NCBI RefSeq assembly: GCF_039555335.1
Contig: NC_092628.1
Location: 62,450,735-62,514,734 of the forward strand
Source: Amphiura filiformis
Lineage: Eukaryota > Echinodermata > Ophiuroidea > Amphilepidida > Amphiuridae
Direction of reading: 5' to 3'
Length of the DNA: 64,000 nt
Part shown: in pieces, positions 135 to 36,000 of the stretch
Position numbering within the stretch: position 1 is the first letter of the stretch
Layout of the letters: each line of letters begins with the position of its first letter
Program-made: the position numbers and the translations under genes
The notes under the pieces: model-generated
What the model was told of the DNA's origin: nothing
What the model saw: only the letters and a program-made list of their open reading frames with translations
Databases searched by the model: none

Positions 135-260
135 CTGTGATGGATCATGTTGTTGTAATATCCTCTGAGCCTCACTTGTGAAGATTTCTGTTGAGTACTG
201 TCAAATACCTGGCTTATTAATTTTACCATTCTTTTGAAAGTCAAATCCCCAGTAATGACC
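135..260 (-). pseudogene. Second copy of sulfatase exon 5 in left gene, disabled
   Basis: This 126-nt exon copy has the same acceptor and donor positions as the intact copy at 322-447 and as both copies in the right gene. Codon 20, a conserved Gly (GGA), reads TGA (201-203 on the plus strand), so including this exon would truncate the protein. The matching right-hand copy (31164-31289) is open. The lesion therefore arose in this lineage after the gene duplication. Confidence 0.75.
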
Positions 261-3200
261 CTGTTAATATGAATATTATGGGAATCAATAAGCATGCAAA
301 CACACAAACAAATATACATACCTGCGATGAATCATGGTTTTGTAGTATCCTCTGAGCCTCACTTGTGAATATTTCTGTTGAGTACTGTCCAAAAACTGGC
401 TTATAAATTTCACCATTCTTATGGAAGTCATATCCCCAGTATATGTCCTGTTAACAATTCAATGCATATGAGGTCTTACTAGACAATCTTCAACAATTGT
501 GCTATTCCAGTTGAAATCATCAATACACCCCCCTATGGAAGACATGACCTCAAAGACCCATTCAGTGATTTCATTGTAAGTGTAAAAAAATTAAGATTGT
601 TTATAAATTGCTTAAAAGTGAAGGACAAGTCATCCAAATTGTCATCTGGTATTTTTGAAATGAAAAATTGGCAAAAAATGAAGAAAACAGCAAGTTGAAG
701 CCCCATTCAAATACACATAGCTAATTTAGATACTGTCAGTATCTAAATTACAGATTCATGTAAAATATCTTATTTTGTCTTAACTACATGGCTTTCGACT
801 GAACCACTAGCAGGCTACGTTATCACATCTATGACAATGACAAAGATCTGAATTTCGATGAATTTTACGATCGTCCGGATGAGCAAATCACTGAATGGGC
901 CTTTAATCTCCCACACAGGGAGTGTAGATTTCATAGATTTCAAATGGAGTCACCCATTCAGGTAGTCCAATTTGAAATTCACACTCCATGTGTATGAGAT
1001 TAAGGTCATGCCTTCCATAGGGGGTGTTTAAATGATTTCTACTGTAATAGCCCATTTTATATTATAACATCAGAGTGCACATTCTTCTTATTCATTTAAA
1101 GGCTTGCACACCAAATAAAACTATATTCTTTCCAAAATACCAATATGATTTGTTCTCTATCTTACTATGGTTCATAATTGCAAGCCATAATGTTAAATGC
1201 ATTCCGGAGTTGTATACCTGATTATTGGGTACAATAAAAATTACACTCTCATGAGCATAACTGCAGCAAGGTCTCATGTTTTGGCCCAAAACACTATTCA
1301 TGAACACTATCATCATCAAAATTATATAATTGCACTATAGGCCTTGTTTTTTTGGCCAAATACACTATTTATGAACACTAACCTTAGCACAATATAATTG
1401 CACTATTAAAAGCCTTGTGTTTTGGCCAAATTTACTATTTTTTTATATATATTTTTTTTGGTTAAAGTTTTTAATTACCTCTAAGGTTGTGTGGTTAAAA
1501 TAGTCTTCTTTTCCCATGTAAAATCCATAATGTGTATCAAATCCACGCTCTGTTGGAATATACTCCTTGGCAAAGAATCCCAAATGCCACTGACAAAATA
1601 TAACAAGAAAATAAATGCAATATACAAAAGTAGGTTTTGTAAGTTTGTATGTTTTATAATATAAATTTCTCCCAAAATCTACATGCACACTTACTTTGGG
1701 TAGACAGACAGGATGATATTAAAAACTACAAAAATAAAGAAGCAGAAATTCACCAGATATTAAGGAAATGCTTCAGAATTCAACTACAGCAGCAACTTTT
1801 AATTATAACAGATTCTGTTATATCATTGAGTTGAAGAGAAGACTGTTTGTCGGAGACTGGTCAAACTATACTTTTTCTGAATCCTTATGATGAGAGCAAT
1901 ACATTGGTATATGGTTCTAAACAAGATTTTAAAATTAAAAAATTTCACCCCCGTGGCCATTTTGGATTTATGCAAATTAAGCACTGTTCCACTACTTGGA
2001 CTTTTGATGACTTTTGACATGTTCTTTAATATACTTTTCTGAAATGATTTTCCTTAATTTGACTAGCCTATAAGGGGTATCACCAACTATCACATCAACT
2101 TGCATGCCTGTTGAAGTCACACAAAATAACATGCATAATTTTGTATTTTTCAATGCTTCCACAAAGCATTCCTTACCTTCCCTACACAGTGAGTTTGATA
2201 ACCAAGTGGTTTCAGTCTTTGTGCTATTGTCGTTTCATTCAATGGTAAACCAAAAGGAGAATCACCAATAATCACACCCAATTGCATGCCTGTTAAAGTC
2301 ACACATAATGAGAAACAAATATATTACAGTCATGTCGAAAATAGATTCTACTAGATATATGAAATCGGTTTTTAATTCCTTTTCTATCTAGATGAGATGA
2401 ATCTTATCAAAGCTGGCAATATGATATAAGAATGAAACTTAGTCAAAAGTGTGTACAGCAGATTGTTATTGGTGTATAAATTGGTGACACATAATAATTC
2501 ACAAGAATGATGCCCTCAAGATACTTTTAAGATACTTACCTGTGTGCATTGGATGTCTCCCTGTCATGATGGCACTACGTGTTGGTGTGCATATCGGTGA
2601 CATGATAATTCATAAGAATGATGCCCTCATAGGCTAGCTTGTAAGATACTTGCCTGTGTGTATTGGATGTCTCCCTGTCATGATGGCACTACGTGTTGGT
2701 GTACATATCGGTGACATGATAATTCATAAGAATGATGCCCTCATAGGCTAGCTTGTAAGATACTTGCCTGTGTGTATTGGATGTCTCCCTGTCATGATGG
2801 CACCACGTGTTGGTGTACATATCGGTGATGCATAATAATTCATAAGAATGATGCCCTCATAGGTTAGCTTGTACGATACTTGCCTGTGTGTATTGGATGT
2901 CTCCCTGTCATGATGGCATTATGTGTTGGTGTACATATCGGTGACACATAATAATTCATAAGAATGATGCCTTCATAGGGTAGCGTAATATACTTGCCTG
3001 TGTGTATTGGATGTCTCCCTGTCATGATGGCACTATGTGTTGGTGTACATATCGGTGACACATAATAATTCATAAGAATGATGCCCTCATAGGGTAGCGT
3101 AAGATACTTGCCTGTGTGTATTGGATGTCTCCTTGTCATGATGGCACTATGTGTTGGTGTACATATCGGTGACACATAATAATTCATAAGAATGATGCCC

Positions 3201-6200
3201 TCATAGGGTAGCGTAAGATACTTGCCTGTGTGTATTGGATGTCTCCCTGTCATGATGGCACTATGTGTTGGTGTACATATCGGTGACACATAATAATTCA
3301 TAAGAATGATGCCCTCATAGGGTAGCGTAAGATACTTGCCTGTGTGTATTGGATGTCTCCTTGTCATGATGGCACTATGTGTTGGTGTACATATCGGTGA
3401 CACATAATAATTCATAAGAATGATGCCCTCATAGGCTAGCTTGTAAGATACTTTCCTGTGTGTATTGGATGTCTCCCTGTCATGATGGCACTACGTGTTG
3501 GTGTACATATTGGTGACATAATAATTCATAAGAATGATGCCTTCATAGGCTAGCTTGTAAGATACTTTCCTGTGTGTATTGGATGTCTCCCTGTCATGAT
3601 GGCACTATGTGTTGGTGTACATATTGGTGACATAATAATGCATAAGAATGATGCCCTCATAGGCTAGCTTGTAAGATACTTTCCTGTGTGTATTGGATGT
3701 CTCCCTGTCATGATGGCACTATGTGTTGGTGTACATATCGGTGACACATAATAATTCATAAGAATGATGCCCTCATAGGCTAGCTTTTAAGATACTTACC
3801 TGTGTGCATTGGATGTGTCCCTGTCATGATGGCACTACGTGTTGGTGTGCATATTGGTGACATTATAATTCATAAGAATGATGCCCTCATAGGCTAGCTT
3901 GTAAGATACTTGCCTGTGTGTATTGGATGTCTCCCTGTCATGATGGCACTACGTGTTGGTGTACATATCGGTGACATGATAATTCATAAGAATGATGCCC
4001 TCATAGGCTAGCTTGTAAGATACTTGCCTGTGTGTATTGGATGTCTCCCTGTCATGATGGCACTACGTGTTGGTGTACATATCGGTGATGCATAATAATT
4101 CATAAGAATGATGCCCTCATAGGTTAGCTTGTACGATACTTGCCTGTGTGTATTGGATGTCTCCCTGTCATGATGGCATTATGTGTTGGTGTACATATCG
4201 GTGACACATAATAATTCATAAGAATGATGCCTTCATAGGGTAGCGTAAGATACTTGCCTGTGTGTATTGGATGTCTCCTTGTCATGATGGCACTATGTGT
4301 TGGTGTACATATCGGTGACACATAATAATTCATAAGAATGATGCCCTCATAGGGTAGCGTAAGATACTTGCCTGTGTGTATTGGATGTCTCCTTGTCATG
4401 ATGGCACTATGTACTGGTGTACATATCGGTGACACATAATAATTCATAAGAATGATGCCCTCATAGGGTAGCCTAAGATACTTGCCTGTGTGTATTGGAT
4501 GTCTCCCTGTCATGATGGCACTATGTGTTGGTGTACATATTGGTGACACATAATAATTCATAAGAATGATGCCTTCATAGGCTAGCTTGTAAGATACTTG
4601 CCTGTGTGTATTGGATGTCTCCTTGTCATGATGGCACTATGTGTTGGTGTACATATCGGTGACACATAATAATTCATAAGAATGATGCCCTCATAGGGTA
4701 GCGTAAGATACTTGCCTGTGTGTATTGGATGTCTCCCTGTCATGATGGCACTATGTGTTGGTGTACATATTGGTGACACATAATAATTCATAAGAATGAT
4801 GCCTTCATAGGCTAGCTTGTAAGATACTTGCCTGTGTGTATTGGATGTCTCCCTGTCATGATGGCACTATATGTGTTGGTGTACATATTGGTGACACATA
4901 ATAATTCATAAGAATGATGCCTTAATAGGCTAGCTTGTAAGATACTTACTTGCCTGTGTGTATTGGATGTCTCCCTGTCATGATGGCACTACGTGTTGGT
5001 GTACATATCGGTGACACATAATAATTCATAAGAATGATGCCTTCATAGGCTAGCTTGTAAGATACTTTCCTGTGTGTATTGGATGTCTCCTTGTCATGAT
5101 GGCACTATGTGTTGGTGTACATATTGGTGACATAATAATTCATAAGAATGATGCCCTCATAGGCTAGCTTGTAAGATACTTTCCTGTGTGTATTGGATGT
5201 CTCCCTGTCATGATGGCACTATGTGTTGGTGTACATATTGGTGACACATAATAATTCATAAGAATGATGCCCTCATAGGCTAGCTTGTAAGATACTTTCC
5301 TGTGTGTATTGGATGTCTCCCTGTCATGATGGCACTACGTGTTGGTGTACATATCGGTGACACATAATAATTCATAAGAATGATGCCCTCATAGGCTAGC
5401 TTGTAAGATACTTTCCTGTGTGTATTGGATGTCTCCCTGTCATGATGGCACTACGTGTTGGTGTACATATTGGTGACATAATAATTCATAAGAATGATGC
5501 CTTCATAGGCTAGCTTGTAAGATACTTTCCTGTGTGTATTGGATGTCTCCCTGTCATGATGGCACTATGTGTTGGTGTACATATTGGTGACATAATAATT
5601 CATAAGAATGATGCCCTCATAGGCTAGCTTGTAAGATACTTTCCTGTGTGTATTGGATGTCTCCCTGTCATGATGGCACTATGTGTTGGTGTACATATCG
5701 GTGACACATAATAATTCATAAGAATGATGCCCTCATAGGCTAGCTTGTAAGATACTTTCCTGTGTGTATTGGATGTCTCCCTGTCATGATGGCACTACGT
5801 GTTGGTGTACATATTGGTGACATAATAATTCATAAGAATGATGCCTTCATAGGCTAGCTTGTAAGATACTTGCCTGTGTGTATTGGATGTCTGCCTGTCA
5901 TGATGGCACTATGTGTTGGTGTACATATCGGTGACACATAATAATTCATAAGAATGATGCCTTCATAGGCTAGCTTGTAAGATACTTTCCTGTGTGTATT
6001 GGATGTCTCCCTGTCATGATGGCACTACGTGTTGGTGTACATATTGGTGACATAATAATTCATAAGAATGATGCCTTCATAGGCTAGCTTGTAAGATACT
6101 TGCCTGTGTGTATTGGATGTCTGCCTGTCATGATGGCACTATGTGTTGGTGTACATATTGCTGACATAATAATTCATAAGAATGATGCCTTCATAGGCTA

Positions 6201-9200
6201 GCTTGTAAGATACTTTCCTGTGTGTATTGGATGTCTCCTTGTCATGATGGCACTACGTGTTGGTGTACATATCGGTGACATAATAATTCATAAGAATGAT
6301 GCCCTCATAGGCTAGCTTGTAAGATACTTGCCTGTGTGTATTGGATGTCTCCCTGTCATGATGGCACTATGTGTTGGTGTACATATTGGTGACACATAAT
6401 AATTCATAAGAATGATGCCCTCATAGACTAGCTTGTAAGATACTTACCTGTGTGTATTGGATGTCTCCCTGTCATGATGGCACTACGTGTTGGTGTACAT
6501 ATTGGTGACATAATAATTCATAAAAATGATGCCTTCATAGGCTAGCTTGTAAGATACTTGCCTGTGTGTATTGGATGTCTGCCTGTCATGATGGCACTAT
6601 GTGTTGGTGTACATATTGCTGACATAATAATTCATAAGAATGATGCCTTCATAGGCTAGCTTGTAAGATACTTTCCTGTGTGTATTGGATGACTCCCTGT
6701 CATGATGGCACTATGTGTTGGTGTACATATCAGTGACATAATAATTCATAAGAATGATGCCCTCATAGGCTAGCTTGTAAGATACTTGCCTGTGTGTATT
6801 GGATGTCTGCCTGTCATGATGGCAGTACGTGTTGGTGTACATATTGCTGACACATAATAATTCATAAGAATGATGCCCTCATAGGCTAGCTTGTAAGATA
6901 CTTGCCTGTGTGTATTGGATGTCTCCCTGTCATGATGGCACTACGTGTTGGTGTACATATCGGTGACACATAATAATTCATAAGAATGATGCCCTCATAG
7001 GCTAGCTTTTAAGATACTTGCCTGTGTGTATTGGATGTTTCCCTGTCATGATGGCACTACGTGTTGGTGTACATATCGGTGATGCATAATAATTCATAAG
7101 AATGATGCCTTCATAGGCTAGCTTGTAAGATACTTGCCTGTGTGTATTGGATGCCTCCCTGTCATGATGGCACTACGTGTTGGTGTACATATTGCTGACA
7201 CATAATAATTCATAAGAATGATGCCCTCATAGGCTAGCTTGTAAGATACTTGCCTGTGTGTATTGGATGTCTCCCTGTCATCATGATGGCACTACGTGTT
7301 GGTGTACATATCGGTGATGCATAATAATTCATAAGAATGATGCCCTCATATGCTAGCTTGTAAGATACTTACCTGTGTGTATTGGATGTCTCCCTGTCAT
7401 GATGGCACTACGTGTTGGTGTACATATCGGTGATGCATAATAATTCATAAGAATGATGCCTTCATAGGCTAGCTTTTAAGATACTTGCCTGTGTGTATTG
7501 GATGTTTCCCTGTCATGATGGCACTACGTGTTGGTGTACATATCGGTGATGCATAATAATTCATAAGAATGATGCCTTCATAGGCTAGCTTTTAAGATAC
7601 TTGCCTGTGTGTATTGGATGTATCCCTATCATGATGGCACTACGTGTTGGTGTACATATCGGTGATGCATAATAATTCATAAGAATGATGCCTTCATAGG
7701 CTAGCTTTTAAGATACTTGCCTGTGTGTATTGGATGTTTCCCTGTCATGATGGCACTACGTGTTGGTGTACATATCGGTGATGCATAATAATTCATAAGA
7801 ATGATGCCTTCATAGGCTAGCTTGTAAGATACTTGCCTGTGTGTATTGGATGTCTCCCTGTCATGATGGCACTACGTGTTGGTGTACATATTGGTGACAC
7901 ATAATAATTCATAAGAATGATGCCCTCATAGGCTAGCTTTTAAGATACTTGCCTGTGTGTATTGGATGTCTCCCTGTCATGATGGCACTACGTGTTGGTG
8001 TACATATTGGTGACACATAATAATTCATAAGAATGATGCCCTCATAGGCTAGCTTGTAAGATACTTGCCTGTGTGTATTGGATGCCTCCCTGTCATGATG
8101 GCACTACGTGTTGGTGTACATATTGGTGACACATAATAATTCATAAGAATTATACCCTCTTGAGCTAGCTTATCAATATTTGGTGTTGGGATCTGGTCTG
8201 AGCCATGAAAGCTGACATCGTTCCAACCCTGGATTTAAGCACAAAAAAGGTGTAAGATATTGATACAACAGTACTTCATAATATAAACTGCCCATATCCA
8301 TTACTGTCAAATGTTGTCAAAGATATTTTTGTAGGCTGGGCCGGATTTACCTTTTTAGGGCCCTGGGCCAGGCCAAAATTTTGAAGGCCCCAAACTCACC
8401 ATGAGGAAGACATGTGCACCCAAGTGGCCAATGCTTAGTTTAGGTATCGACAGTGGCGGCAGGAGCATTACAATTTAGGGGGAGATGAGCATAGATTTTA
8501 GTAGGATATTGTGCATGCAAAAATTTTTAATTTAGCCCAAAATGAAGGTGAATTTTGCTATATAAGTGCGCAAAATTGTGCAATTTTACCCTATTTTGAC
8601 CAGATTTTGGCCCAAAACATGGGCTAAAAAGGAAGATACAAGGGCAATTTTGGGGCCCCAAAATTTGGGCGCCATGGGCCCGGGCCCATCTGGCCCAATG
8701 GTAAATCCAGCCCTGCTTGCAGGTTCTGTGCCAAAACCCCCATATCAGAAAAAAACAACGCACTGAAGGGTCTATTGTTCTATTGTGTCCGATTTGAGCA
8801 CTGACATATTGGAAAATGTTGCCAATTAATATTCATGAGAGCGTACATTCAACGTCCAGTTATCGAAATTGGGTGACTTGTGTTGGGCAGGTGTGAAATC
8901 CATCTGACTGGGTGTTTTAATTACGTAACGCATAAAGGTTTTGGCATCATTGAATGGCTGCCTAGTGCTGTTATATGCTTAGTTTCTATAATAATAATTA
9001 TTATTTTCTTTATTTTTTCCTTTCTCTGCACTTATTCTTTCTTATGCCTACACTTTAGCAGTGGTGTAGAATTCTTTTTGACATGGGGGTGGGATATTTT
9101 TTGTAGGCCTACCGGGTATAGTGAATCCAGTACCTGTACCTTATAAATGCGGGCAAAAATTTTTACCATAAGCTCATTGAAACTCAGCTGGTGAAATATG

Positions 9201-11659
9201 GGACAAAAGTGGAATAAATTTGCGCGATGCACTAAAGAAATGGCATTTTTGTAGCTAACATGGTCAAATATGAGGTTGATTTCGACAGAAACCCATACAC
9301 AGGCGTCAACATGGGGGGGGGTGATTGTATGGACCACCCCTTGCAAAATATTGGGGGATTTATCCCCCCGGATCTATACGCCTATGCACTTTAGGGACCT
9401 GTCACTCCATCATTCTCCTTCTCGCCCTCTCTCTCTCTCTCCTTCTCTCCCTCTTCCTCTTTTTCTTTTTGTCTCCCTCCCCTCCTTACAATCTCGATCA
9501 CCCATCCGCTTCTCCTCTTTTCACCCCTCAACCCCTCCTTCACTACCTCAATTGGATATTCGTGATATTAAGAAACCCATTTGAGTTTATTGAACAGGCC
9601 TATAACCATAATAACATATAGGCCTACTGCGAAGGAGTTAATTATAGAAAGTGACACAGATAGACTTATACATAGCAGCCATGGCACGTTGTTATGGGTA
9701 ATCGATTAGCAACTCTATTGAGTTGATTTAAATGAGGTGCCTAAATAAAGCTGGGTGGTAAATAATCGTAATTTCGTGTGCTGGCGAACACTCAGTCACA
9801 CCCTTGGGTTGAACAAGGACAATAGGTACCTCTCACTGAAGTGGGCGCTTTCACATGACATTCTTTTGATCACTTATTGACAGTAGCCTGCCTGATAAAG
9901 CGTTAATACGCTGTCAGGTTAGTTACCGATTTAATGGCGGAAGCCCTTTGTCTTGAACAAAAGGTACCTCTCGATGAATAGCTTGGCAGAACTTCTAATC
10001 GGCACAAAGTTACAATGCGTTACATAATCTACTGCGCCTCCACGAATATGATAGCTCCGTGGAAAAAAAAGATAAATGGGTTGGGGTTGCTAACTAATAT
10101 TGATACTCTGTTTGTGTCTTTTTATTTTTCCAACACCAGGTAGAACCATGTTCCAGTTCTTTAAAGACCCTAGTTCAAGTACACTCCTGATTCTATTTCA
10201 GTTGGTGCTGAAATGTTATATGTTTACAGCTACAGGCTGTATCACAAATATGATTGGTATGATCAGTTTGTAGTGATCTCAGACAAGACTGCCGCATTAA
10301 AATGCAACATTATGATCCACCTTGTTTATGGTGAAATGTTATATAGGTCATAAAACTATAAATTCTGATCCTTGCAACAGGATCTAATGTTACATTTGGA
10401 AGAAGCAGGCTTTTATACTGATGGGTACCAATCAATTTGATATAAGATTTGATCTACCTGCTCTTTAGTTCATTAGAACAATTTTTCTGGCTAGTTAATC
10501 AGTTCTCCAAGAACCTATTATATTTTCCCAGGCTAATTTCACCTCGAATTAGATCAGATCATAAAACCATCTGATCATTCAAGATCTTCCTACATCAGAC
10601 TTAGAAGGTTCATTAAAAATTGGTCCTTAGACCCCATTCACTGGAAGTGGAACTGAATTCAACTTTGTCACTATACATCCAACAGTTTTTGTTAGCATAA
10701 ACAGTCAGTCAAATTGCGTTTTTCTGCTGATTGCACATTAGAGGTCATTATACACTTTCCCTACTTACGTACAGTGTTAACACCCAATGATTCATATTAA
10801 TTAATGATGATACTCTGTATATCAAAACAGGGAATACCTGCCATAATTTACAACCAAAGGATGGATCCAAGTGACACAATTGTGTCATACCAGCAAAGGA
10901 TAAAAGTAAAACAAGGTAAATGTGACATAATATCTAATGCGGGAATGATACAAAAGGTATAAAGGATTTGTGTCATTCCTCTGTTGGATGATGCATCACA
11001 ATTGTTTTGAATTTAATCCTCTGTAGTCTACCACAATTGAATTTGAGGTCAAAATCAAACTGTGATATTTTTATAGCATAAAATAGGATCCCCATTTGTT
11101 CAAAAGCAACTTTTAATTTAACAACAGTTTACAGCAGGCCTGTCGGAACGAATTTTGAAGTGGTGTGGCCTAAATTTGGGGTCTGGGGGTGAGACACCTA
11201 GCGGAGTTTTAAGGGGCAGGGCCCCTCATGTGGGTGTAAGGGGGAAAAGCCCCTTTAAAGCCACAGAACTTTTGAAAATGAATATACAATTTTAACAGTA
11301 AATTAAACTGCAAAATATGCTATTAAAAATCCTGACACTAGTAAACCAATTAGTCTCAGTAAAAATCAGATTGTTTGTGTCAATTTGTTTATTTTTATCT
11401 TTTAGGCTGCAAAATGGTGCGGCAAAGTGGTGCGGCCATGGCTGCACCTGCCGCAGCGGTTCCGACGGGTTTACAGACCTCCGAAAACAAAATTCGACAA
11501 ACTTACCAAGTCATCAGCTAAAATAAAAATAATATGTGGCTTGGAACTGGCTGCTTCTCTGGTTGCTCGTTGCTTGACTAGCACCATAGGGCTATATATA
11601 TAAAGCACTATCCCTAGCACCAAGAAAATGAATACCAGTGAAATGCAGTTCTTCATCAT
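135..11659 (-). CDS. ARSB-like: Arylsulfatase B-like sulfatase, left-hand paralogue, 3' part outside window
   Basis: Tandem paralogue of the right-hand gene, with the same exon boundaries and phases. Exons: 1, 11507-11659; 2, 8069-8228; 3, 2177-2289; 4, 1479-1589; 5, 322-447 (a second exon 5 copy at 135-260 has a stop). Exons 6-11 would lie beyond position 1. Exon 2 keeps the active-site motif CTPTR, and exons 3-4 keep GKWHLG. Exon 1 encodes 51 residues, 14 more than the paralogue: a hydrophobic stretch (about residues 5-28) is followed by the basic segment [11 protein letters not shown] before [12 protein letters not shown]. That reads as either a long signal peptide or an uncleaved type II anchor. 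Intron 2 holds the exon-derived tandem array. Whether the gene is functional cannot be told without exons 6-11. Confidence 0.85.
322..447 (-). CDS. ARSB-like: Left sulfatase exon 5, intact copy
   Basis: A 126-nt exon in phase 0-0, bounded by TTAACAG and GTATGT. It encodes 42 residues including [17 protein letters not shown], which aligns with the ARSB stretch around NMYSTNIFTKRAIALI. It lies 61 nt upstream, in gene order, of a disabled second copy. Confidence 0.8.
497..1055. repeat. Foldback repeat split by a younger insertion
   Basis: The arms are inverted copies containing TGGAAGACATGACCT and its complement. The same foldback, uninterrupted, is at 31527-31714 in the right gene, so it predates the gene duplication. 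Here it is split by the MITE at 551-904. Confidence 0.7.
551..904. mobile_element. MITE of about 350 bp with CCCATTCAGTGATTT termini
   Basis: The ends are inverted copies of CCCATTCAGTGATTT. A second full copy with the same internal sequence is at 59223-59570. The right paralogue lacks it and reads straight through (GACCTTAATCTC), so it inserted after the gene duplication. The flanks suggest a TTAA-like target. Confidence 0.7.
1056..1478. other. Intron 4 of left sulfatase, no further feature
   Basis: The sequence aligns with parts of 31715-32697 in the right gene, apart from two insertions found there. It contains several near-repeats of a phrase with TGTTTTGGCCAAA, TATGAACACTA and ATAATTGCAC. 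I see no gene. Confidence 0.5.
1479..1589 (-). CDS. ARSB-like: Left sulfatase exon 4
   Basis: A 111-nt exon in phase 0-0 encoding 37 residues that begin [20 protein letters not shown], the sulfatase segment that follows the catalytic Lys. The acceptor is TTTTGTCAG and the donor is GTAATT, both as in the right gene. Confidence 0.85.
1590..2060. other. Intron 3 of left sulfatase, nothing recognised
   Basis: AT-rich intron sequence. I see no coding exon, tandem repeat or clear inverted repeat. Confidence 0.4.
2066..2107 (-). pseudogene. Truncated second copy of sulfatase exon 3, left gene
   Basis: Its acceptor and first codons ([12 protein letters not shown]) match the intact right-gene copy at 33949-34061. 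The homology stops after about 42 of 113 nt, and the remainder with its donor is missing. The left gene therefore has one usable exon 3 where the right gene has two. Confidence 0.7.
2177..2289 (-). CDS. ARSB-like: Left sulfatase exon 3
   Basis: A 113-nt exon entering after one base of a codon and leaving in phase 0. It encodes [19 protein letters not shown] and ends in VGK, whose Lys is the sulfatase active-site lysine just before WHLG of exon 4. Confidence 0.85.
2472..8068 (-). repeat. Tandem array of about 49 copies of sulfatase active-site exon sequence
   Basis: I counted about 49 units with a period of about 113-118 bp. Read on the minus strand, each holds the last ~103 nt of exon 2, from the codons for [20 protein letters not shown] to HPIHTG, and then about 12 nt of intron. 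Only the copy at 8069-8228 has the first 57 nt of the exon. The Arg of the formylglycine motif is CGT in a little over half of the units and CAT (His) in the others. The base after the exon end gives a GC donor in about 32 units, GA in about 13 and GT in 4 (near 2541, 3799, 6446, 7370). Most units have TAG just past the donor. Units lacking it are 114 nt long and join into open stretches. Between successive exon pieces there are too few bases for an intron, so the array cannot splice as separate exons. Confidence 0.92.
8069..8228 (-). CDS. ARSB-like: Left sulfatase exon 2, catalytic motif exon
   Basis: A 160-nt exon encoding [20 protein letters not shown] and then the active-site segment [21 protein letters not shown]. 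The Cys in CTPTR is the residue converted to formylglycine in sulfatases. The donor is GC (CAG then GCAAGT) in both paralogues, and the acceptor is AATCCAG. It is the right-hand end of the array and the only unit with the complete exon. Confidence 0.88.
8336..8715. mobile_element. hAT-type MITE
   Basis: Termini CTGGGCCGGATTTACC and CAGGGCTGGATTTACC are inverted. The flanks TTTGTAGG and CTTGCAGG are an imperfect 8-bp target duplication. The insert is absent from the right gene. GC-rich short ORFs inside are by-products of the repeat. Confidence 0.7.
8770..10070. other. About 1.3 kb present only in left intron 1, origin unknown
   Basis: The right paralogue goes directly from the sequence before this block to AAATGGGTTGGGGTTGC. 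The block contains a hAT-type MITE (9059-9386) and a pyrimidine (CT-rich) tract at about 9420-9480. GGTACCTCTC occurs twice, near 9820 and 9960. I see no coding frame or paired ends. Confidence 0.45.
9059..9386. mobile_element. hAT-type MITE with perfect 8-bp target duplication
   Basis: The ends are CAGTGGTGTAGA and CATAGGCGTATAGA (reverse complement of the right end). CACTTTAG flanks both sides exactly (9051-9058 and 9387-9394). Confidence 0.78.
10071..11134. other. Intron 1 of left sulfatase, shared with right copy
   Basis: The sequence aligns with 34990-36580, minus two MITEs found only there. No exon is recognised. Confidence 0.5.
11135..11468. mobile_element. hAT-type MITE with exact paralogous empty site
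   Basis: The target duplication GTTTACAG is at 11127-11134 and 11469-11476. The right gene has one uninterrupted GTTTACAGACCTCC at the same place. The ends share the inverted motif GTCGGAAC. Confidence 0.8.
11507..11659 (-). CDS. ARSB-like: Left sulfatase exon 1
   Basis: Starts with two Met codons, followed by a hydrophobic segment and then [12 protein letters not shown], whose Asp pair binds the active-site metal in the family. The donor GTAAGT follows TTG in phase 0. The first Met matches the start of the right gene, but the part between the hydrophobic core and KPHII is 14 residues longer. Confidence 0.82.
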
Positions 11660-24020: not shown

Positions 24021-27000
24021 TTATTGTGGTGTTGTTAAATTGACCCATGGAACCCAATTACCACCATGTAATTTAGGATCACATTTTGGATCCGCTGGTT
24101 TGTTGCCTGGTGGAACTGCTGTTGCATTCCATGCTTCTATTCTGGCTTTCAACTCCTTCACAATATCTGAAATTAGAAAGAAAATAATGAAGTGACCTCT
24201 TTCAGATACATAAGCACCGGGAAAATGCATGATTTTTGTGAGCAACTTTCACGCGGCAGTTTTGGAAAATTCGCGATTTGTCCATAGTATTCCCAAAATA
24301 TGCGCAATTCCCCCAAATAGTTCAAAATTGATGTTTTAAAATATTTTTATCCTTTTTTTCACCGAAATATTTCCCCCAGTCTATTTTCTATACTTTTTTC
24401 TGCATGGACTGTATTGCAGATCACCATGATTTCTTTCAATTTTAGTGAAAACTTAAGATTTTTGGAAAATGAATACTTTAAAAATGGATATTAAACATCT
24501 TAAACCATTTGAGGTTGCAGTGAGTGCCTACCTTGATTCCATGGTGCTATATTATAGAATTCACATGGATCATTCCTGATGTTAAACAAACATGGCTTCT
24601 CTGTTGGTTTACAATTAGTGGTAGCATTAGCTGGTCTTGGAGGACAAGATACTCTTCCTGGTCTCAAAGGTAGTGGGTTGTAATCTGGTAAGATATAAAG
24701 TATATTACAATTAGTGGTAGCATTAGCTGGTCTTGGAGGACAAGATACTCTTCCTGGTTTCAAAGGCGGTGAGTTGTAATCTGGCAAGAAATAAAGTATA
24801 TACATAAATCAGTTTACTTGATGTTGTAGTAACTATTTTATTCAATATTAACTGCATCAATCAGTGTAATTCTGTTACAATAGACTTACCTTTATCACTG
24901 GTAACTTCACTTATGGTTCTCCAAGATGCATTTACTTTTGGTGGAAACTGGTCTCTTGGTCACACCAATATACAAGTTGTTAATGGTACATAATTCACAC
25001 TGTCAATCTAATTTACTTGCCCAACTATTTCACTCAGAATGTACTATAACATCTTTATATCAGTCACTCCATGGTCTTATCATTGATAATGATACATTAC
25101 CCTTATCAACCTAAACCATAACTAACCATTTCACCCAGAGTGTAACTTACCATCAACAGCATGTGTTGCATTGTACCAGCCATCCCACTTGCCATTATAG
25201 TCATTGCCTATCACTACCTTGTAGTCGCCTCTGCGTAATGCTGACAATTTTCTCTGTGGATCTATGTTATGCAGGATCTCTTTCCTAGGTGATGTGGTTC
25301 CTCTGTAATCAAATTATATGTATAAGTATATTGAATTTTTATATGGCATTTCCCCCAAGATACTTGTGAGAGAAGAATGATTAATCCTAACCAGTATTAC
25401 TCACAGACCCATGCACTTGTGTAGCCAGGGGATATACTCACCATATCTATCTAATAAAACAATTACAGCTCTATGCACATTTTCAGGATAAGATAAAAAG
25501 AGCTATCCAAGTGTAGCACCGTGGACGCGAGATATATATGAAGAGAAATTGATAATGAATCCGAATTTTTGAAAATGAGTCCAAATACAATGATGCACGC
25601 TAACGAGAAGCCTGGGTGTGAGTCCTCTGGTTGCCAACAAATTGTGACCACAAAGCAAATCTAATCATAAAAATGTAACCCAATTCCCCCCCTTAACCAT
25701 TGATTTCTATGGAACAGAAATCCACCAACAATTGCAGTGGCCAATGGAAAAATGTTGCCCAATTTAATGATCAAAACTTTACTTTTGCGATGAATGACAG
25801 ATTTATAATTAATACCCCTTATTTGTCCTGCTCCATGCAGATATTTGATTTATAAAGTCTTTCAACAGGCTATAAAAGTTGTAAGACTTGTAAGTAGTAA
25901 AGGTAAATTGACTGAAAATGTAAAAAGGACATTTTCATATTTTAACATTTATGTGAAACATCAAATATAGTCTGACTAACTAAGCTTATTTAATATGAAC
26001 TTACTTTGACAAAGTGGCCCACACATCATATCCATCCAAGTTTGTTAGTTCGCTAACGTTTCCTCCAGCCAGCCTATACATGGTTGGAAACCAGTCACAC
26101 ACATGCAACATGTCTTCTGATATCCTCTTAGGTTTTTCTAACAATGGACTATGTACAAAACCAGTGCCACGGACACCACCCTCCCAAATGGTATCTTTAG
26201 TTCCTCGCAATGGCCAATTATTGGCATAATTGTAGTCAAAAGAAGCTGGTGGGCCACCATTATCAGTGCTAAAGAAGATGACAGTGTTATTGTAAAGTCC
26301 TGTGTCTATTAGTGTTTGTGTGAGATTTCCTATAGAGTCATCCATTGCTGAGACCATTCCTGAAATTAGATGGAGGAAAGAAAAAAAAATGTGACACAAA
26401 TCGATGAAATTGAAATCAATTGTAGGAAGCTGCCATAGTTTTCAGCACAGTTCTTCAGCAGTCAAAGGGTAAAAGATACAACTTTTCCTCCAAATATACA
26501 GGTCTTTTAAGTTAAAAGTTAGATGTACATGTATAGCCTCTATGAGAGACTACATCCATTTCTGGTTGTGACTGCAAACATTGCTTATACAAATGAAGAT
26601 TCCTCCTCAAAAGTATATGGTCAGTGCAATTACAGAGATGAATATTTCTGATTTTCCATTTTGTAGCAGAAAAAGGGGTTCAATACGAACTGCATGCATC
26701 CAAATACAAAGAGTACCATTTGGGTGGTTTGTAAAGGAGTATGATTAGATTTCAGATGCACAATAGTTCATGAAATGCATCTCATTACCCATATAGGTAA
26801 ATGAGGCCAATGAATATATGTAGACTAATTGAAACCAAGCCTTACCTGCGAACACCCGTCTCCTTTCATTCTCTATGGTAGGAAATCTCTGTACATATTT
26901 AGCAGGAGCTTGAAGAGGTTGGTCTGGATCTGCACTGTGTACTGCTTGATGTGCAAAGTACATGAATAGAGGCTGGAAACAAGTAAAAATGGAGTGAGTA

Positions 27001-30000
27001 AGTTTGGCTGTACATACTGCAAAATCAAGACAAAAAACATCAAGACCAGTAGGTTGGATGAAATTACTTTACATTCAAACTTTCAACATAGACTGGCTGT
27101 ATTAGGGCATAAGTGGTCCTACCCTGGGATGGATCAAATCATTCCTCAGCGAATGCAAGCAAGCAGTATCTGTCTAAGGAAGCCACTATCAACCCTATTA
27201 ACCATGCTATATTGCAGAACAATTTGGCTACTCTTGCATCCTGGACAGAACTTCTGAAAGAGACGGCTGTTGAAGTTTCTCCTGCAGTCACCCTTTTGTG
27301 CCAGGCATCAATTCGACAGGGAAGAGTTCCACCGCAATGGAAGAAGGCGCTGGTTGTTCCCTTGTTTAAAAAGGGAAGTCGTTCTTCTGCAGCCAACTAT
27401 CGCCCTATTTCGTTGACTTCAGTGCTGTGCAAGTTATGTGAACATATCATTCACTGTTCCATCATCCATCATCTCTCTGACAACAAAATCTTGTCAGACG
27501 CCCAGCATGGGTTCAGGAAACGACGTTCTTGCGACACACAATTAATTGCCACTGTCAATGATCTAGCTAAGGAATCAACAAAAAATCTCAAACCGATGTC
27601 ATCCTCCTGGATTTTGAAAAAGCATTTGACAAAGTGTCTCATCGCCATCTTCTAGCAAAGGTCAAGCATTATGGCATCCATGGCAGCACATACCATTGGA
27701 TCAGTGACTTCCTTCATGCCAGAACACAAGTCACATCTGGTGTTCCGCAGGGGAGTGTGTTAGGCCCCCTCCTTTTCCTGAATTTTATTAATGATCTACC
27801 TGAGTGTGTATCATCTGCCACTGCTAGATTGTTCGCTGATGACAGCATCTTGTACCACCAAATATCATCAAGTGCTGATTCCATCAAACTCCAGAAAGAC
27901 CTTGACGCTCTCCAAGACTGGGAATCGAAATGGCTAATGAGGTTTAATGCCGCCAAATGCCAGGTCCTCCAAATTACCAACAAGAGGAACCCCATTCCAG
28001 CTTCCTACACAGTTCATGGCCAAGTCTTGGAGGTGGTGGGCTCAGCAAAGTATCTGGGCGTTCACTTGGATAGCCATCCGGATTTCAACACCCATACTGA
28101 TGCTATCACCAGGAAAGCCAACTGTACAAGAGCATTCCTGCAACGTAATCTCAGCCATTGCAGTAATCAAGTGAAGGAGGCTGCTTACACAACATACGTC
28201 CGCCCCACTGTGGAATTTGCATCACCATCATGGGATCCTCACACAAAGAGGAACATAAACAAGGTAGAACAAGTTCATCGAAGCGCCGCTCGATTTATTG
28301 TTGGCAACTATCAACGCACCAGCAGTGTTTCTGATATGATCAGCGCCCTCAACTGGCCTTCCCTTCAAGAAAGACGCCTCCAAAGCCGCTTGGTGATGTT
28401 CTATAAGATCCATCATGACCTGGTTGACATCAAGTGTGAGGACTACCTCATCCCGCTCAGAACATCCACCAGAGGTCACAACTCCCGGTACTTCATTCCA
28501 TCAACCAGCTCTTCAGTTTATACCAGCTCATTCTTTCCCCAAACCATCAGGGACTGGAATAATCTATATGTAGATCCAGCTGAGTATACATCCCTCGACA
28601 CCTTCAAGGCTGCCCTGAGGGACCTCCTGCTGAAGTAGCTCCATCACCTCATCTCCAGTTTTTACTTGCACCTTGTATATATTTGCACCTGGAACAAAGT
28701 TTCTGTCGCCTTTGAGACGACGCATGTGTACACCGTAGTGCGAGCTGCGAGTTATCTTCGTTTACATGAAGCCTGCACTTCAAAGGGAGAAAGAAAGACA
28801 CCTGGCTCAATGTACAGTTATGTCCATCACTCATAAAAGTAAGATTAGCCTCCACACATACAACATTCAAGGAGAAGCTCTACAAAGAGTAAAACAGCAT
28901 GACTACCCTGGTGTAACAATATCAGACGACCTAAAATGGTCAACTCATTGCAAGAAGACAATGGCTTAAGCCAGTCGTACAATGGGTATGTTGAGATGTG
29001 AAGATGAAGGCGTATTTGTCCTTGGTATGTCCCCAACTTGAATACAGTGGTGAAATATGGAATCCACACATACATCAAGACATATAGGCTCTAGAATAAG
29101 TTCAGTGTCAAGCCATCCGCTTCATCTACCAACACTATCGTAGAACAACTGGGGTCACTCCACTCTTCAAAGCACTATCTTGGGACCCTCTACACACAAG
29201 ACACCTTTGTCAACCAAGCCAACATGTTTTATAAGATACAGTTTTAGCTGGTCAACATCATATTTCTTTCATACCTTCATTTAGCAACATCATCCACCCA
29301 TAACCAAGATGAATATCGGTATAAGCAACCGAACACAAGTGTAGATGTGTATGGTTATTCATTTCACCAAAGGGCTGAAAGGACTTGGAATAAACTTCCT
29401 GAATATGCAGTGAACACACCATCTATTTCAGTCTTCCGGTCGACAGCACTCCCAGTCATCAGGGATATGCACCCACCACCCAGTCTCAGAAGTCTCTAAA
29501 CCAATCTTTTTGTAGCACCAGCACCTTGTATCTACTTTACATGTATGGCACTTTGTGAGTTCCTTTGTGGCACCTTGAGTTTCGCCGCACCATTCCTAGT
29601 TTAGTCTACAAGACTGTAAAAGGAGTACAACTACTATAGACTGAAGAATTGTTTGGCAATTGTGTGATTGCTTTGAAGCACCAAGTGGAATGACCCCTAA
29701 GATCTCCTGATCTCACACCTCCGGATTTCATCTGGTGGGGCTATTTAAAATCAAAGGTTTTCACAAGTCCTCCTGTAGACCTTGATGAAGTTCAGAGACA
29801 CATAACTGCACAAGTTGATTAGTTGACATCCCAGGCAGGACTGACCTCTCAGAAGTTGTGGTGTGAATGCCAGGTTGAGGAGAGCTGATATCTGCATACA
29901 GAGGAATGATGGGCTTGGTGGCCATGCCCTAGTGGCCATGTAGAAGACTAAGACAGTCAACATTACTGTAAGAGGTTAAACATGATATGTGATGGTCATG

Positions 30001-33000
30001 TTGCTTTTCGCAACTGCATTTTTACTCGGCTACAAATATAGCCACTGAGTCCTTATTAATGGTCACACACCGGTCATTTTCCAGTTGTAGGAAGACACTA
30101 AGATGTTGATTCAGCTATCAATGACTGTTTATTATACCGTGCCATCCATTCATCAAGAGATACAGACGCTCTGCAAAAAGATCTTTCATCCCCTGGGCAT
30201 CAAACTGGCAAATGTCATTTAACACTAATAAATGCAAAACACTTCGCATCACCACCAAAAGAAATCCGGTAATTCATACATACTCGATGGCTACAGATTA
30301 CCTTGAAACCGTAAAACACCACCCATATCTTGGAATCAAACTGACTCATAATCTCAAATGGGCTGAACACATTAATAATATTGCAACTAAGGCCAACAAA
30401 GCTCTCTGGTTTGTAAGACGTAACCTCTGGCGATGCCCTTCATCAATCAAGCAACAAATGTATTTCGCACTTGTCAGACCTATCCTAGACTATAGTAGCA
30501 TAGTGTGGGATCCTCATACCGCAACAGATATACAGAAACTGGAAATGATACAAAGAAGAGCAGCGCAGTACTACATTTTAATTTGTTGTTTAATTACCTT
30601 TTCTGAGCTGTGTCTTTTGACGACCGGTGTTGGCAATCATGTCCTTAGTCAGATATTGCCTTTATGGCAACTTTACTAAGTATTGTTGAAGATGTAGATG
30701 TAGATCAACTATAGCATTTGACCAAATACCTCCAGGCCGTTGCAACTCATATACTAGCGCAATACAAAAAGGTGGCGACAGCGTCGGCTTTCCCTGTGTA
30801 TTACATGGCGTCCGATGGCGTCGCCAACAGTCACCAAATTGATTCACGGGCGGCGCCATATTGGAAAAGTAAAGAAAAATGCTGCTGCCACCACGATAGT
30901 ACCTAAAGCTACCTAAAAAAATATGCGTAGTGCTGTGGAGACTTACGTTAACATGACGTCACGAATATGCCAATTACAGAAAAATGCTGCTGCCACCTAC
31001 GTCCACATGTTCCAAGTGTTGACGTCGCTGACCTCACATCGACGAACGGAGTTGCATTTCCATCGCACTTCGTGCTCTATTCTTCATCCATGATACCTCA
31101 TAGTTTTTAATCTAGTAGCATTTTTCAAACTGTATACTTTATTTTGATACACCCTGTGCATACCTGAGATGTGTCATGTTGTTGTAGTATCCTCTGAGCC
31201 TCACTTGTGAAGATTTCTGTTGAGTACTGTCCAAACACAGGCTTATAAACCTCCCCATTCTTATGGAAGTCAAATCCCCAGTAATGACCCTGTTAATATG
31301 AAGATTTTGGAAATCAATAAGCATGCAAATAAACAAACAAACATACATACCTGTGATGGATCATGTTGTTGTAGTATCCTCTGAGCCTCACTTGTGAATA
31401 TTTCTGTTGAGTACTGTCCAAAAACTGGCTTATAAATTTCACCATTCTTTTGGAAGTCAAATCCCCAGTATATGTCCTGTTAACAATTCAATGCATATGA
31501 GGTCTTACTACACAATCTTCAATAAATGGTCTATTCCAGTTGAAATCAATACACCCCCTATGGAAGACATGACCTTAATCTCTCACACAGGGAGTGTAGA
31601 TTTCAAATAGAGTCACCTAATTGGTAGTCCAATTTGAAATTCACACACCATGTGTAGGAGATTAAGGTCATGTCTTCCATGGGGGTGTATAATGGGTTTC
31701 TACTGAAATAACCCATTACAACATCAGTGTGTAAATCCTTCTTATTCATTTCAAGGCATGCACATCATATCAGTCAATTAAACTAGCAAACAAGCTGGGT
31801 TAATCTATATTCTTTTCAAAATACCAATATGATTTGTTCTCTATCCTAACCTGCCAGGGGCTTTTGGCGACGGGAAGGGAAAGAGGGAAGGAATAAAGAG
31901 AGAAAACAAAGAAAGAAGTTGTGTGCTCCGGGTGGGATTCAAACCCTAGACCCCTCGCATGCCAACCACTGGCTCGGCGACACTTTGCCACGGGTCTTGG
32001 GCTTGGTTGGCCAGCGAAACCGTGCCTATATATCACTTAGGGCGAATGTGTCATCAGTGACACCACGTGGGATGCACACACGAACAGCACATATATATCA
32101 AGTAGTATTTTGTAGTACATGTACTCAGGTGTGTAAGGGTTAATGGTTTATAATTGCAAGCCATTATGTTAAATGCATTTCGGAGTTGTATACCCGAATA
32201 TTAGATGCAATAAAAATTACACTCTCATCAGCATAATTGCAGCAAGGTCTCTGTCTATGAACACTATCGTCAGCAAATTGTGCTACTTTGTCCATGTGTT
32301 TTGTCCCAAAACACCGTCTATGAACACTATCAAAATTATATACACTAAAGCCTTGTGTTTTTGACCAAATACACTAGATGTGATCAAGCAAAATGAGTCG
32401 GATGTCGAGAATATTGATTTTGAGATATAACCACTATTTAACTTGGCTTTGTATTGTATTGTTCTGAACAGCACTAAAATGGCCATATCTCTGACACTGT
32501 AGGTCTAAATATGATGGGGTTTTCAGCAAAATGAAGCTCTAAGAATGGCTAATGTAATGAAACTGAAATCTGAATTTTGATTTTGATCGACATCAGACTC
32601 ATTTTGCCTGATCCCATGAACACTATCCTCAGGACACAATATAATTACACGAAAGCCTTGTGTTTTGGCCAAGTTCACTGTTTAAGTTTTTAATTACCTC
32701 TAAGGTTGTGTGCTCAAAATAGTCTTCTTTTCCCATGTAGTATCCAAAATGTGTATCAAATCCACGCTCTGTTGGGATATACTCCTTGGCAAAGAATCCA
32801 AGATGCCACTGACAAAATAGAACAAGAAAATAAATGTATCAGAACCACATTGATCCCCCAAGTGAGTTTTCACTTGATTATTGCTCTTCATGAATCTCAT
32901 GCCCAATAATATAAAGCACACTTCAAATTGATTTCCACAAGATTTCAATTTATATTTGACATCCAGGACATGATTTGCTTACTAAGTACATTTCACAATG

Positions 33001-36000
33001 AAGTAATTATGTAGTACCAAAAAACAAACAAACAAAATAATCTTAAGTGCCATGATTGTAGGACCAATCAGAAATTTTCTATACAGACTACTGTGCCTAC
33101 TGCTACACCAGTATCACAGATTTAACCATGAAATAAAAACCAATTGTCATTAAATTCTACTTGTAGCAAACAACCTGCTAGTGCTAAAATAGCGATCTTT
33201 AAAGAATGGTAGATGTTTGTTGAATTTCATTACTCTCTTCTTGAACAAAGCATTACTTACTATCACTGAATAGATTCATCAGTAGGTAAACAGATTGAAT
33301 AAATTTCTTTTGCACAAAACCACAATTTTACTCATGATTGATGGTTGTGGTGTGTGATGCAGACTCTATTGGGGAATCCAATTTATTTATTTATTTATTT
33401 ATTATGCTTCATCACTGGCTCATATACAATTACAAAGATAAATATATTATATAAATATTGCACATACTAATAATCAAGACAAAGTAAAGAATAAAATGCC
33501 AGCGAAAAGAATGGGACAAACAGGTGCAAAATCACCTCTAGGACCATCCCACCTTTCGATTTTTGAAAACAAATTATTGGGGAAAAAAACCCATCACAGC
33601 CCCATCCCAAATTAAATAAGCCTGCAATTCGCGCATCTGCAGTAAGAGCTCCAAGAGCATGTTTTCAAAGAACAAAAATTTTGAGTAAAATGAGAATTCA
33701 AAAATTCAATTGGGTCAGGAGGGATGGATCCAACATCATGAATGGTGCGGTCCCGCTTCTTGAGTCATGTATGAGATCCCCTCCTGACTGCTCAAAATAC
33801 ACCATCTGCAGTTGGGGTCTGGTCTGGCCGGAGGTGGGAACTGACCATCATCATTTCAAAGATGTCTATCGACCATGATAGATAAACCATCAATTGTGAG
33901 TATAAATCTATTTTTGTGCAAAATTAATTTATTCAGGCCATTACTTACCTTCCCTATACAGTGAGTTTGATAACCAAGTGGTTTCAGCCTCTGTGCTATT
34001 GTCGTTTCATTCAATGGTAAGCCATAAGGGGTATCACCAACTATCACATCAACTTGCATGCCTGTTGAAGTCACACAAAATAACATGAATAATTTTGTAT
34101 TTTTCAATGCTTTCACAAAGCATTCCTTACCTTTCCTACACAGTGAGTTTGATAACCAAGTGGTTTCAGTCTCTGTGCTATTGTCGTTTCATTCAATGGT
34201 AAACCATAAGGGCTATCACCAATAATCACACTTAGTTGCATGCCTGTTAAAGTCACACATAATGAGAAACAAATATAGTCATGTTGATGTTAGATTTTAC
34301 TATAGCTAAAATAATAGCTTCTCGATCGTGAGAGCTCACACGCATGACAATTGCGTCAGCGTACAACGCCTACCACACACGCTTTGGGTAGCGCTGCATT
34401 TCTGTGCGTGCACAATCGATCGCGCTACCGTGTCATTCCAGTAAACTTGCGACATTACGCAGTGCACGCAGTACATTCATACTCTCATGTCGAGAAACTA
34501 TTATTTTGGCTATAGATATATGAAATCAGTTTTTAATTCCTTTTTCTATATAGATGAGATGAATATAAGCTGGCAATACGATCTAAGAATGAAACTTAGT
34601 CAAAAGTGTGTACAGCAGCCTGTTATTGGTGCACATTGGTGACAAAATAATTCATACAAATGATGCCCTCATAGGCTAGCTTGTAAGATACTTGCCTGTG
34701 TGTATTGGATGTCTCCCTGTCATGATGGCACTACGTGTTGGTGTACATATTGGTGACACATAATAATTCATAAGAATTATACCCTCTTGAGCTAGCTTAT
34801 CAATATTTGGTGTTGGGATCTGGTCTGAGCCATGAAAGCTGACATCATTCCAACCCTGTATTTGAGCACAAAAATTGATTCAACAGTACTTAATAATATA
34901 AATTGCCCATATCTGTGTTCTTTCCAATGTTGTCAAAAATATTCTTCTGTGCCAGAACCCCATAAGGTTCTAACCCAGAACACTATATCAAATGGGTTGG
35001 GGTTGCTAACTAACATGTCTTTTTATTTTTTCAACACCAGGTAGAACCATGTTCCTGTTCTTTAAAGACCCTAGTTCAAGCACACTCCTGATTCAATCAG
35101 TGCTGAAATGCTTTATGTTTACAGCTACAGGCTGTATCACCATGATTATCACAATGATTGGTACTCATCAGTTTCTAGTGATCTTAGACAAGACTGCCGC
35201 ATTAAAATGCAACATTATGATCCACCTAGTTTATGGCTAAATGTTATAAAGGTCAGAACTATCAATTCTTATCCTTGCAACAGGATACAATGTTACTTTT
35301 GGAAGAAGCAGGCTTTTAAATAAATTTTAATACTGATAGGTACCAATCATTTTGATATACTCTGTATATAAGATTTGCTCTACCGTATTCATTCCAATAA
35401 GCGCCCAAGGCACTTTACAAAGTCATTTTGGGTGGGCGCTTATTTTTTACGTGGTTTACCTAACATAAGCGCCGTTTATTAGAGACAAATTTACCTACTT
35501 TTATTATAGGGTCCCGGGACGTTCTAATAGCTTTTCTGATGCAGTAAATGTATTGCAAGTTTACACAGGACTTCAAATCCTCAAGCTATTTCACTGTATC
35601 AATGTCTATCAGTCACTTCAACATTAATGGTACCCTTTAGCATATTCAAAATAGCCTGGGTGGGCACTTATTGGGGTATGGGCGCCTATTGGAATGAATA
35701 CGGTACCTGCTTTTCTCCTCAGAACAATTTTTTGGCTATAGTCCATTATCTACCTCGAGTCACCAGCACTAGCTTTGAAGTTCAGCGTGTTCTGCGTTAG
35801 CTTAGCGTTACTTGGTGTGTGTACATACATGTACTTTTACGTGTGTGAACAACATGCCGCATATACGCAAGAAACCACGCTAAGCCAATGCAGCACATGT
35901 TTAAATTCAATCCTAGTGCTGGTGACTTGAAGTAGATATATAGACTATAGTTAATAATTTCTCCAATGAACCTTCTAGTCTGAAAGGAATATAGTTAGAT

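Follow-up and report, generated by a model that had tools for sequence, protein, structure and literature searches.

A 64,000-nt stretch of Amphiura filiformis DNA (NC_092628.1, positions 62,450,735 to 62,514,734; the window) carries, inside intron 2 of a sulfatase gene, a tandem array derived from the end of the gene's own active-site exon. We conclude that this array is very probably a donor-side "mirage" minisatellite, which grew by unequal crossing-over and whose extra splice donors are intronic and evolve neutrally. A passive, very large minisatellite of this kind is the most likely reading, and it coincides with the null explanation of the first-pass annotation of this sequence, plain unequal crossing-over with no function, which fits the data best.

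The window contains two paralogous ARSB/I/J-like sulfatase genes, g1 and g2, both on the minus strand. The array lies in g1, which is partial in the window (exons 1, 2, 3a, 4 and 5a; the remainder lies past base 1). The paralogue g2 is about 26 kb from the array and is unexpanded. The gene models comprise the following features (a hyphen in a donor marks the exon-intron boundary):

11507..11659, minus strand: g1 exon 1, beginning at the start codon.
8069..8228, minus strand: g1 exon 2, the real active-site exon (160 nt); its 3' part is unit 1 of the array and its donor is CAG-GCAAGTAT.
2177..2289, minus strand: g1 exon 3a, whose acceptor ends the array-bearing intron 2.
1479..1589, minus strand: g1 exon 4.
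322..447, minus strand: g1 exon 5a.
24021..36727, minus strand: g2 gene model from start codon to stop codon, a 570-amino-acid (aa) open frame in eleven exons (1-2-3a-4-5a-6-7-8-9-10-11).
34696..34855, minus strand: g2 exon 2, the sole full copy, with the donor CAG-GCAAGTAT.

The PF00884 sulfatase domain was detected in g2 (490 aa; E 4.8e-55) and in the partial g1 (221 aa; E 5.6e-32), and exon 2 of both genes encodes CTPTR, the CxPxR formylglycine motif. A 22-residue 5' piece of exon 2, searched alone against Pfam, matched no family. The best solved relative of g2 was human arylsulfatase B (1FSU; E 1.7e-115), which has one active-site segment in the aligned chain, unlike the repeated segment in g1. 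Our protein searches listed the best 120 of 5732, 614 and 214 matches; the search with whole g2 was not directed at exon 2, while the 614- and 214-match searches were. Among the matches listed, the protein closest to g2 (490-aa query) was A. filiformis P0001, an arylsulfatase, with 79% identity over 99% of the query. It was followed by a second Amphiura protein at 69% and by echinoderm and hemichordate proteins (P0004-P0014) at 57-62%. Exon 2 differs between g1 and g2 at 2 of 160 sites, and all 54 residues encoded by the g1 exon are the same in P0001. Intron 2, as calculated from the exon coordinates, measures 5779 bp in g1 and 452 bp in g2.

The array itself consists of two features:

2469..8171, minus strand: tandem array of 49 full units and one truncated unit, each full unit comprising the last ~100 nt of exon 2, the donor and 16 nt of intron.
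2466..2517, minus strand: truncated terminal unit (unit 50), with a 3' breakpoint in common with a truncated copy in g2.

Tandem Repeats Finder reported a single array at 2469-8171 (period 114, 49.5 copies, 95% matches, score 9771). A script scan of the minus strand found 50 unit starts and 49 donor ends at a spacing of 111-120 bp, with 116 bp in 19 of the 49 intervals and 114 bp in another 19. Both results confirm the array of about 49 units inside its own sulfatase gene that had been described previously. Each unit starts at the LA codons inside exon 2 and ends with the donor CAG-G(C/A/T)AAGTAT plus 16 nt of intron, after which the next unit begins. The previous description of the unit as an active-site exon with its donor was correct about the coding origin, the CTPTR motif and the exon's own donor, but only the 3' part of exon 2, and not the whole exon, is repeated. 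Unit 1 is the authentic exon end, unbroken with the rest of exon 2 (8228-8069, GWNDVSFHG...), and g1 intron 2 holds 48 additional copies of this end. The donor dinucleotide was GC in 32 of the 49 units, GA in 13 and GT in 4; the real donor is not GT. The CpG observed/expected ratio was 0.27 in the array (2469-8171) versus 0.45 in the whole window.

Since the copy number is known from one assembled sequence and tandem arrays are error-prone, we considered whether the true number could be far lower. An amphioxus mirage was indeed reported to be aberrantly assembled in a draft genome (PMC3087553). However, the units are individually distinct: their mean divergence is 4.7% (4.3% for units 2-48), and only 9 of 1176 pairs, as cut, are identical. 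They also have an ordered history. Neighbouring units are closer to each other than in shuffled order (4.77 versus 6.19 differences; none of 2000 shuffles was as low), and in a unit-by-unit comparison the five-unit block of units 33-37 is repeated as units 44-48, whereas the longest block in 200 shuffles had four units. We therefore regard an assembly artefact of this kind as improbable.

Next to an exon 2 that is conserved between g1, g2 and P0001, units 2-49 vary as chance predicts. Relative to their consensus they contain 26 distinct coding variants, 6 synonymous and 20 nonsynonymous; the resulting ratio of 3.33 compares with 3.35 expected from 20.7 and 69.3 sites. Because of this contrast, unit 1 appears to be maintained as a coding exon, while the remaining units, without a sign of such maintenance, look neutral. 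In line with this, an in-frame copy without a stop is present in 32 of the 49 units and the exon frame is closed in 17. CTPTR is kept in frame in 16 of the 49 and missing from 33, and the Arg codon of the motif is changed from CGT to CAT in 23 of 48 units. This commonest motif-breaking change (23/48) is a CpG transition.

These counts also bear on the possibility that the units are retained in the mRNA and yield a protein with many CTPTR-like motifs. The array does contain open stretches of 208 and 170 aa, spanning five and four units, and a predicted Pinctada sulfatase described below (P0003) has ten units in frame. Nevertheless, the exon-2 frame stops five codons past the unit 1 donor, the 17 closed units and the 33 units lacking an in-frame CTPTR are difficult to reconcile with such a protein, and there is no sign of purifying selection among the units. 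We consider a translated repeat extremely improbable; translation through the array from exon 2 or upstream is contradicted by the stop shortly past the unit 1 donor.

The position of this stop also determines how the extra donors can be read. When exon 2 was spliced in silico from the unit 1 donor, the frame stayed open through exon 5a. When it was continued up to the donor of unit 2, 7, 15, 38 or 49, a stop appeared at codon 111 in all five cases, because the frame closes five codons beyond the unit 1 donor. Since all five later donors tried give this early stop, the array is best read as intronic. Tandem duplication of a mutually exclusive cassette exon was also rejected: the unit is a partial exon, only 16 nt separate a donor from the next copy, and retention leads to an early stop.

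We compared the donors with the 11-nt complement of the 5' end of the U1 small nuclear RNA. The sense strand of the window has 52 sites with at most one mismatch to this 11-mer, 49 of them inside the array; the three outside are the exon donors of g2 exon 2, g2 exon 5a and g1 exon 5a. The four GT donors of the array are the only perfect complements in the 64 kb:

7365..7375, minus strand: perfect U1-complementary 11-mer CAGGTAAGTAT in unit 7, a possible decoy donor.
6440..6450, minus strand: perfect U1-complementary 11-mer in unit 15.
3792..3802, minus strand: perfect U1-complementary 11-mer in unit 38.
2532..2542, minus strand: perfect U1-complementary 11-mer in unit 49.

The predicted U1 pairing energy was -14.0 kcal/mol for the GT donors, -9.3 kcal/mol for the real GC donor and -12.2 kcal/mol for the strongest of the remaining donors in the g1 and g2 models. 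The sole full copy of exon 2 in g2 also has a GC donor, and therefore the GC-AG intron probably existed before the gene duplication.

These data allow for a field of decoy donors, as the first-pass annotation had suggested: the array donors would bind the U1 small nuclear ribonucleoprotein at the expense of the unit 1 GC donor, which is weaker; part of the g1 transcripts would then be unproductive (poison splicing), and array length would tune output. The concentration of 49 of 52 near-U1 sites and all four perfect ones in the array, the stop at codon 111 from each later donor tried and the GC donor of the real exon 2 in both paralogues are in favor of this. On the other hand, use of the decoys would require the definition of exons of 276 to 5689 nt. 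Moreover, one of the 11 sites of the donor 11-mer is variable, and as 19 of the 103 windows of 11 nt in the unit have at most one variable site, this 11-mer does not stand out for its conservation. Finally, the amphioxus mirages were reported to leave splicing undisturbed (PMC3087553, PMC3902484). Overall, a functional decoy field seems unlikely to us. A structured RNA, the second role proposed previously, was not supported by folding of five single units, which gave z-scores of -0.69, 1.30, -0.62, 0.25 and 0.50, and at gathering thresholds Rfam had no match in the array; its sole match in the window is tRNA-like and lies elsewhere.

The paralogue preserves information on how the array arose. 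In agreement with the first-pass annotation, a single further copy of the unit, truncated and representing the seed, lies in g2 at 34682-34621:

34621..34682, minus strand: truncated extra unit copy in g2, with the 3' breakpoint in common with unit 50 of g1.

The g1 terminal unit and the g2 extra copy stop at one place, where both have CACCAATAACA, two differing bases and CTGCTGTACACAC. Because this truncation breakpoint is common to g1 and g2, the first duplication predates their split. Each of the 48 units that follow unit 1 has the base of the truncated copies at two aligned diagnostic columns, and three further differences (CTAGCTCAA against CTAGCCTAT) were read by eye in that alignment; the 3' parts of these 48 units resemble unit 1. 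This pattern suggests that the later units are hybrids of unit 1 and the truncated copy, generated by crossover.

The age of the units was compared with that of the gene duplication. The paralogue introns diverge by 8.3% (91 of 1103 aligned sites in 8 segments; segment bootstrap, 5.9-10.3%), a pool from which the segment between intron 2 end and exon 3a was excluded (36/171; gap-rich and overlapping the segment at intron 2 start) and which may underestimate the divergence, the remaining segments having been picked for alignability. The units, at 4.7%, differ less than the paralogue introns do. This speaks for an expansion later than the gene duplication, with most of the units now seen probably younger than that event. 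Growth in g1 would then be more plausible than loss in g2, with the reservation that homogenisation lowers the apparent age. Thus, the proposal of growth from a seed after the gene duplication stands for most of the present units but not for the duplication that made the seed, which is older than the split.

Alternatively, all or much of the array could be older than the gene duplication and have been deleted in g2, which would otherwise be compatible with a mirage. The truncated terminal copy in both genes shows that some duplication is ancestral, and the g2 junction would look no different had a deletion joined unit 1 to the truncated copy. This history is disfavored by the 4.7% between g1 units as compared with the 8.3% between paralogue introns, a difference that homogenisation could mimic; we consider it possible, though rather unlikely.

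In a tree of the units, unit 1 groups with the g2 exon (support 97/92), and unit 49 has the longest end branch (0.082), with a close relative inside the array, unit 38 (88/88). The position of unit 1 is at odds with the array having converted the true exon wholesale, and the idea of a reservoir converting this exon thus lost its support. Small exchanges may occur, as one unit 1 base (GGGAGG) is in common with unit 9.

According to the explanation that we favor, a mirage minisatellite, an early local duplication would have produced a second copy of the 3' part of exon 2, together with the GC donor and 16 intron nucleotides; this copy would then have lost its own 3' part. After the gene duplication, unit 1 and the truncated copy, or descendants of these two, would have undergone unequal crossing-over that produced hybrid full units, amplified in one paralogue via further single- and multi-unit exchanges. 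With the GC donor of unit 1 joined to exon 3a, the other 48 donors would lie inside intron 2 and evolve neutrally. Some observations weigh against this explanation. Diversity per column is slightly lower in the exon part of the unit than in the intron part (0.041 over 97 columns versus 0.062 over 14), a small difference over few columns, and the neutrality count of 26 variants is small. The 5' diagnostic differences could stem from early divergence and not from crossover. In addition, the use of the unit 1 donor in g1 splicing is something we infer from the sequence, and the four GT donors pair better with U1 than the real GC donor does, which makes the use of downstream donors possible.

Other exons of this gene family are duplicated as well. 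In g2, exon 3 is present twice (3a and 3b; 33949-34243, minus strand; 113 bp each, with a 69-bp intron between them). Because either copy alone leaves the frame open and both together break it, 3a and 3b are candidate mutually exclusive exons. In g1, the second exon 3 copy is truncated. A doubled exon-3 segment like g2 3a/3b was also seen in the predicted sulfatases P0015 (Branchiostoma lanceolatum) and P0093 and P0103 (Mactra antiquata); repeated duplication may have affected exon 3 of animal sulfatases as well. Both genes contain two copies of exon 5 (31164-31476 and 135-447, minus strand; 126 bp each), with an in-frame stop in the second g1 copy. Exon 10 of g2 (24609-24801, minus strand) has a 96-bp in-frame duplication of the exon start with its acceptor, and P0001 has three copies of this segment, whose acceptor tract is translated as NILYI[FL]P. 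It thus seems to be an acceptor-side mirage, read as coding in the P0001 model, so that both kinds of mirage would occur in the gene family. Elsewhere in the window we found reverse transcriptase fragments (PF00078; 27113-28638, plus strand, and 39536-40411, minus strand), which are retroelement remains in and near g2. An Rfam transfer RNA (tRNA) match (37182-37239, minus strand; 44.1 bits) that was not called by ARAGORN is possibly a tRNA-derived repeat, and tandem repeats of ~50, 61 and 100 bp, rich in GTTGGC, lie at 37794-38191.

The protein searches revealed a possible parallel in a mollusc. The third-best match to the whole g2 protein was the predicted Pinctada imbricata sulfatase FSP39_021788 (P0003; 827 aa), which contains nine complete 34-residue copies of the exon 2 end and a partial tenth running into exon-4 sequence. 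After HTG, g1 would read KY from the phase 1 donor G-GCAAGTA; P0003 has EY, which, judged from the protein alone, could be another phase 1 donor, G-GTGAGTA, read through. As estimated from the protein, the unit starts of P0003 and g1 are about three codons apart and the unit ends about 7-8 nt apart. P0003 and g1 thus share the tandem repetition of one and the same exon end; in P0003, unlike in g1, the copies number ten, are in frame in the gene model, belong to a mollusc and are known from protein alone. A second search, with the repeat region of P0003, gave 795 bits for P0003 itself and 87 bits for the match ranked next. Among the 308 fetched proteins, tandem copies of the exon 2 segment were found in P0003 only, and intronic arrays are invisible in protein data. 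In five other fetched proteins the segment matched at two places separated by several hundred residues, the pattern expected of two sulfatase domains, and a general scan of the 308 detected some short internal tandem repeat in seven, P0003 included.

These data hint at amplification of the same exon end in two phyla, and the Pinctada model raises the question of whether the sequence of this exon edge is prone to duplication. A bolder possibility is that the donor end of the ARSB-like active-site exon is a recurrent mirage hot spot, hit independently in brittle star and pearl oyster with unit ends at most ~10 nt apart (from protein), and that the U1-complementary donor field is a fast-changing heritable dial on sulfatase splicing; we offer this as a speculation that is probably wrong. 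What makes the array valuable is its size, the survival of a seed copy in the paralogue and the chance that this exon end was amplified again in a mollusc. With the array in g1 and an unexpanded, seed-bearing paralogue, array growth and any splicing effect are testable in one genome.

Finally, we compared the array with known systems. The first-pass annotation knew of no sulfatase described with such an array. This holds in the literature covered, as our search of titles and abstract openings in one collection found no sulfatase or echinoderm case of a boundary array, but the phenomenon itself is known from the "mirage" minisatellites of the amphioxus genes for Adh3, the globins BflGb6 and BflGb9, troponin C and PGBD5 (PMC3087553, PMC3902484). 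Their units measure 150-160 bp in BflGb6 (6 and 3 copies in two haplotypes), 157 bp in BflGb9 and 108 bp in PGBD5 (three imperfect copies). Either exon boundary can be affected, and reverse transcription-PCR suggested normal splicing (PMC3087553, PMC3902484). Like these mirages, the g1 repeats cross an exon-intron boundary, many with a splice signal, and lie beside the authentic exon; concerted evolution acts within the cluster, and donor-side and acceptor-side cases occur in one gene family. At the sequence level the array fits a mirage: its unit spans the boundary with a splice signal (GC or GA in 45 of 49, GT in 4), the exon at the cluster edge is intact (exon 2 with unit 1 gives 54 of 54 residues of P0001), and the boundary units stand outside the concerted evolution, with the caveat that unit 49 is close to unit 38.

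A related phenomenon was described for human paralogues in segmental duplications, which have internal tandem repeats at exon-intron boundaries (on average 30-bp units in four copies) that were in some cases reported to form new introns (PMC2812944). The g1 array shares with them a boundary minisatellite expansion that differs between recent paralogues, but has 115 bp x 49 and a gene model without a new intron. As in the cases of PMC3443670 and PMC4974935, the duplicated stretch includes a splice signal; in contrast to them, an existing intron was lengthened and the gene model needs no new acceptor. The array differs from the amphioxus mirages in its ophiuroid host, its mostly GC or GA donors, the sulfatase gene and its 49 copies, compared with 6 and 3 in BflGb6 and 3 in PGBD5 (Adh3 is outside this comparison). 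In summary, what is new here is the ophiuroid host, the mostly GC donors, the four perfect U1-complementary candidate decoys and a copy number far above those of the amphioxus cases whose counts are compared here.

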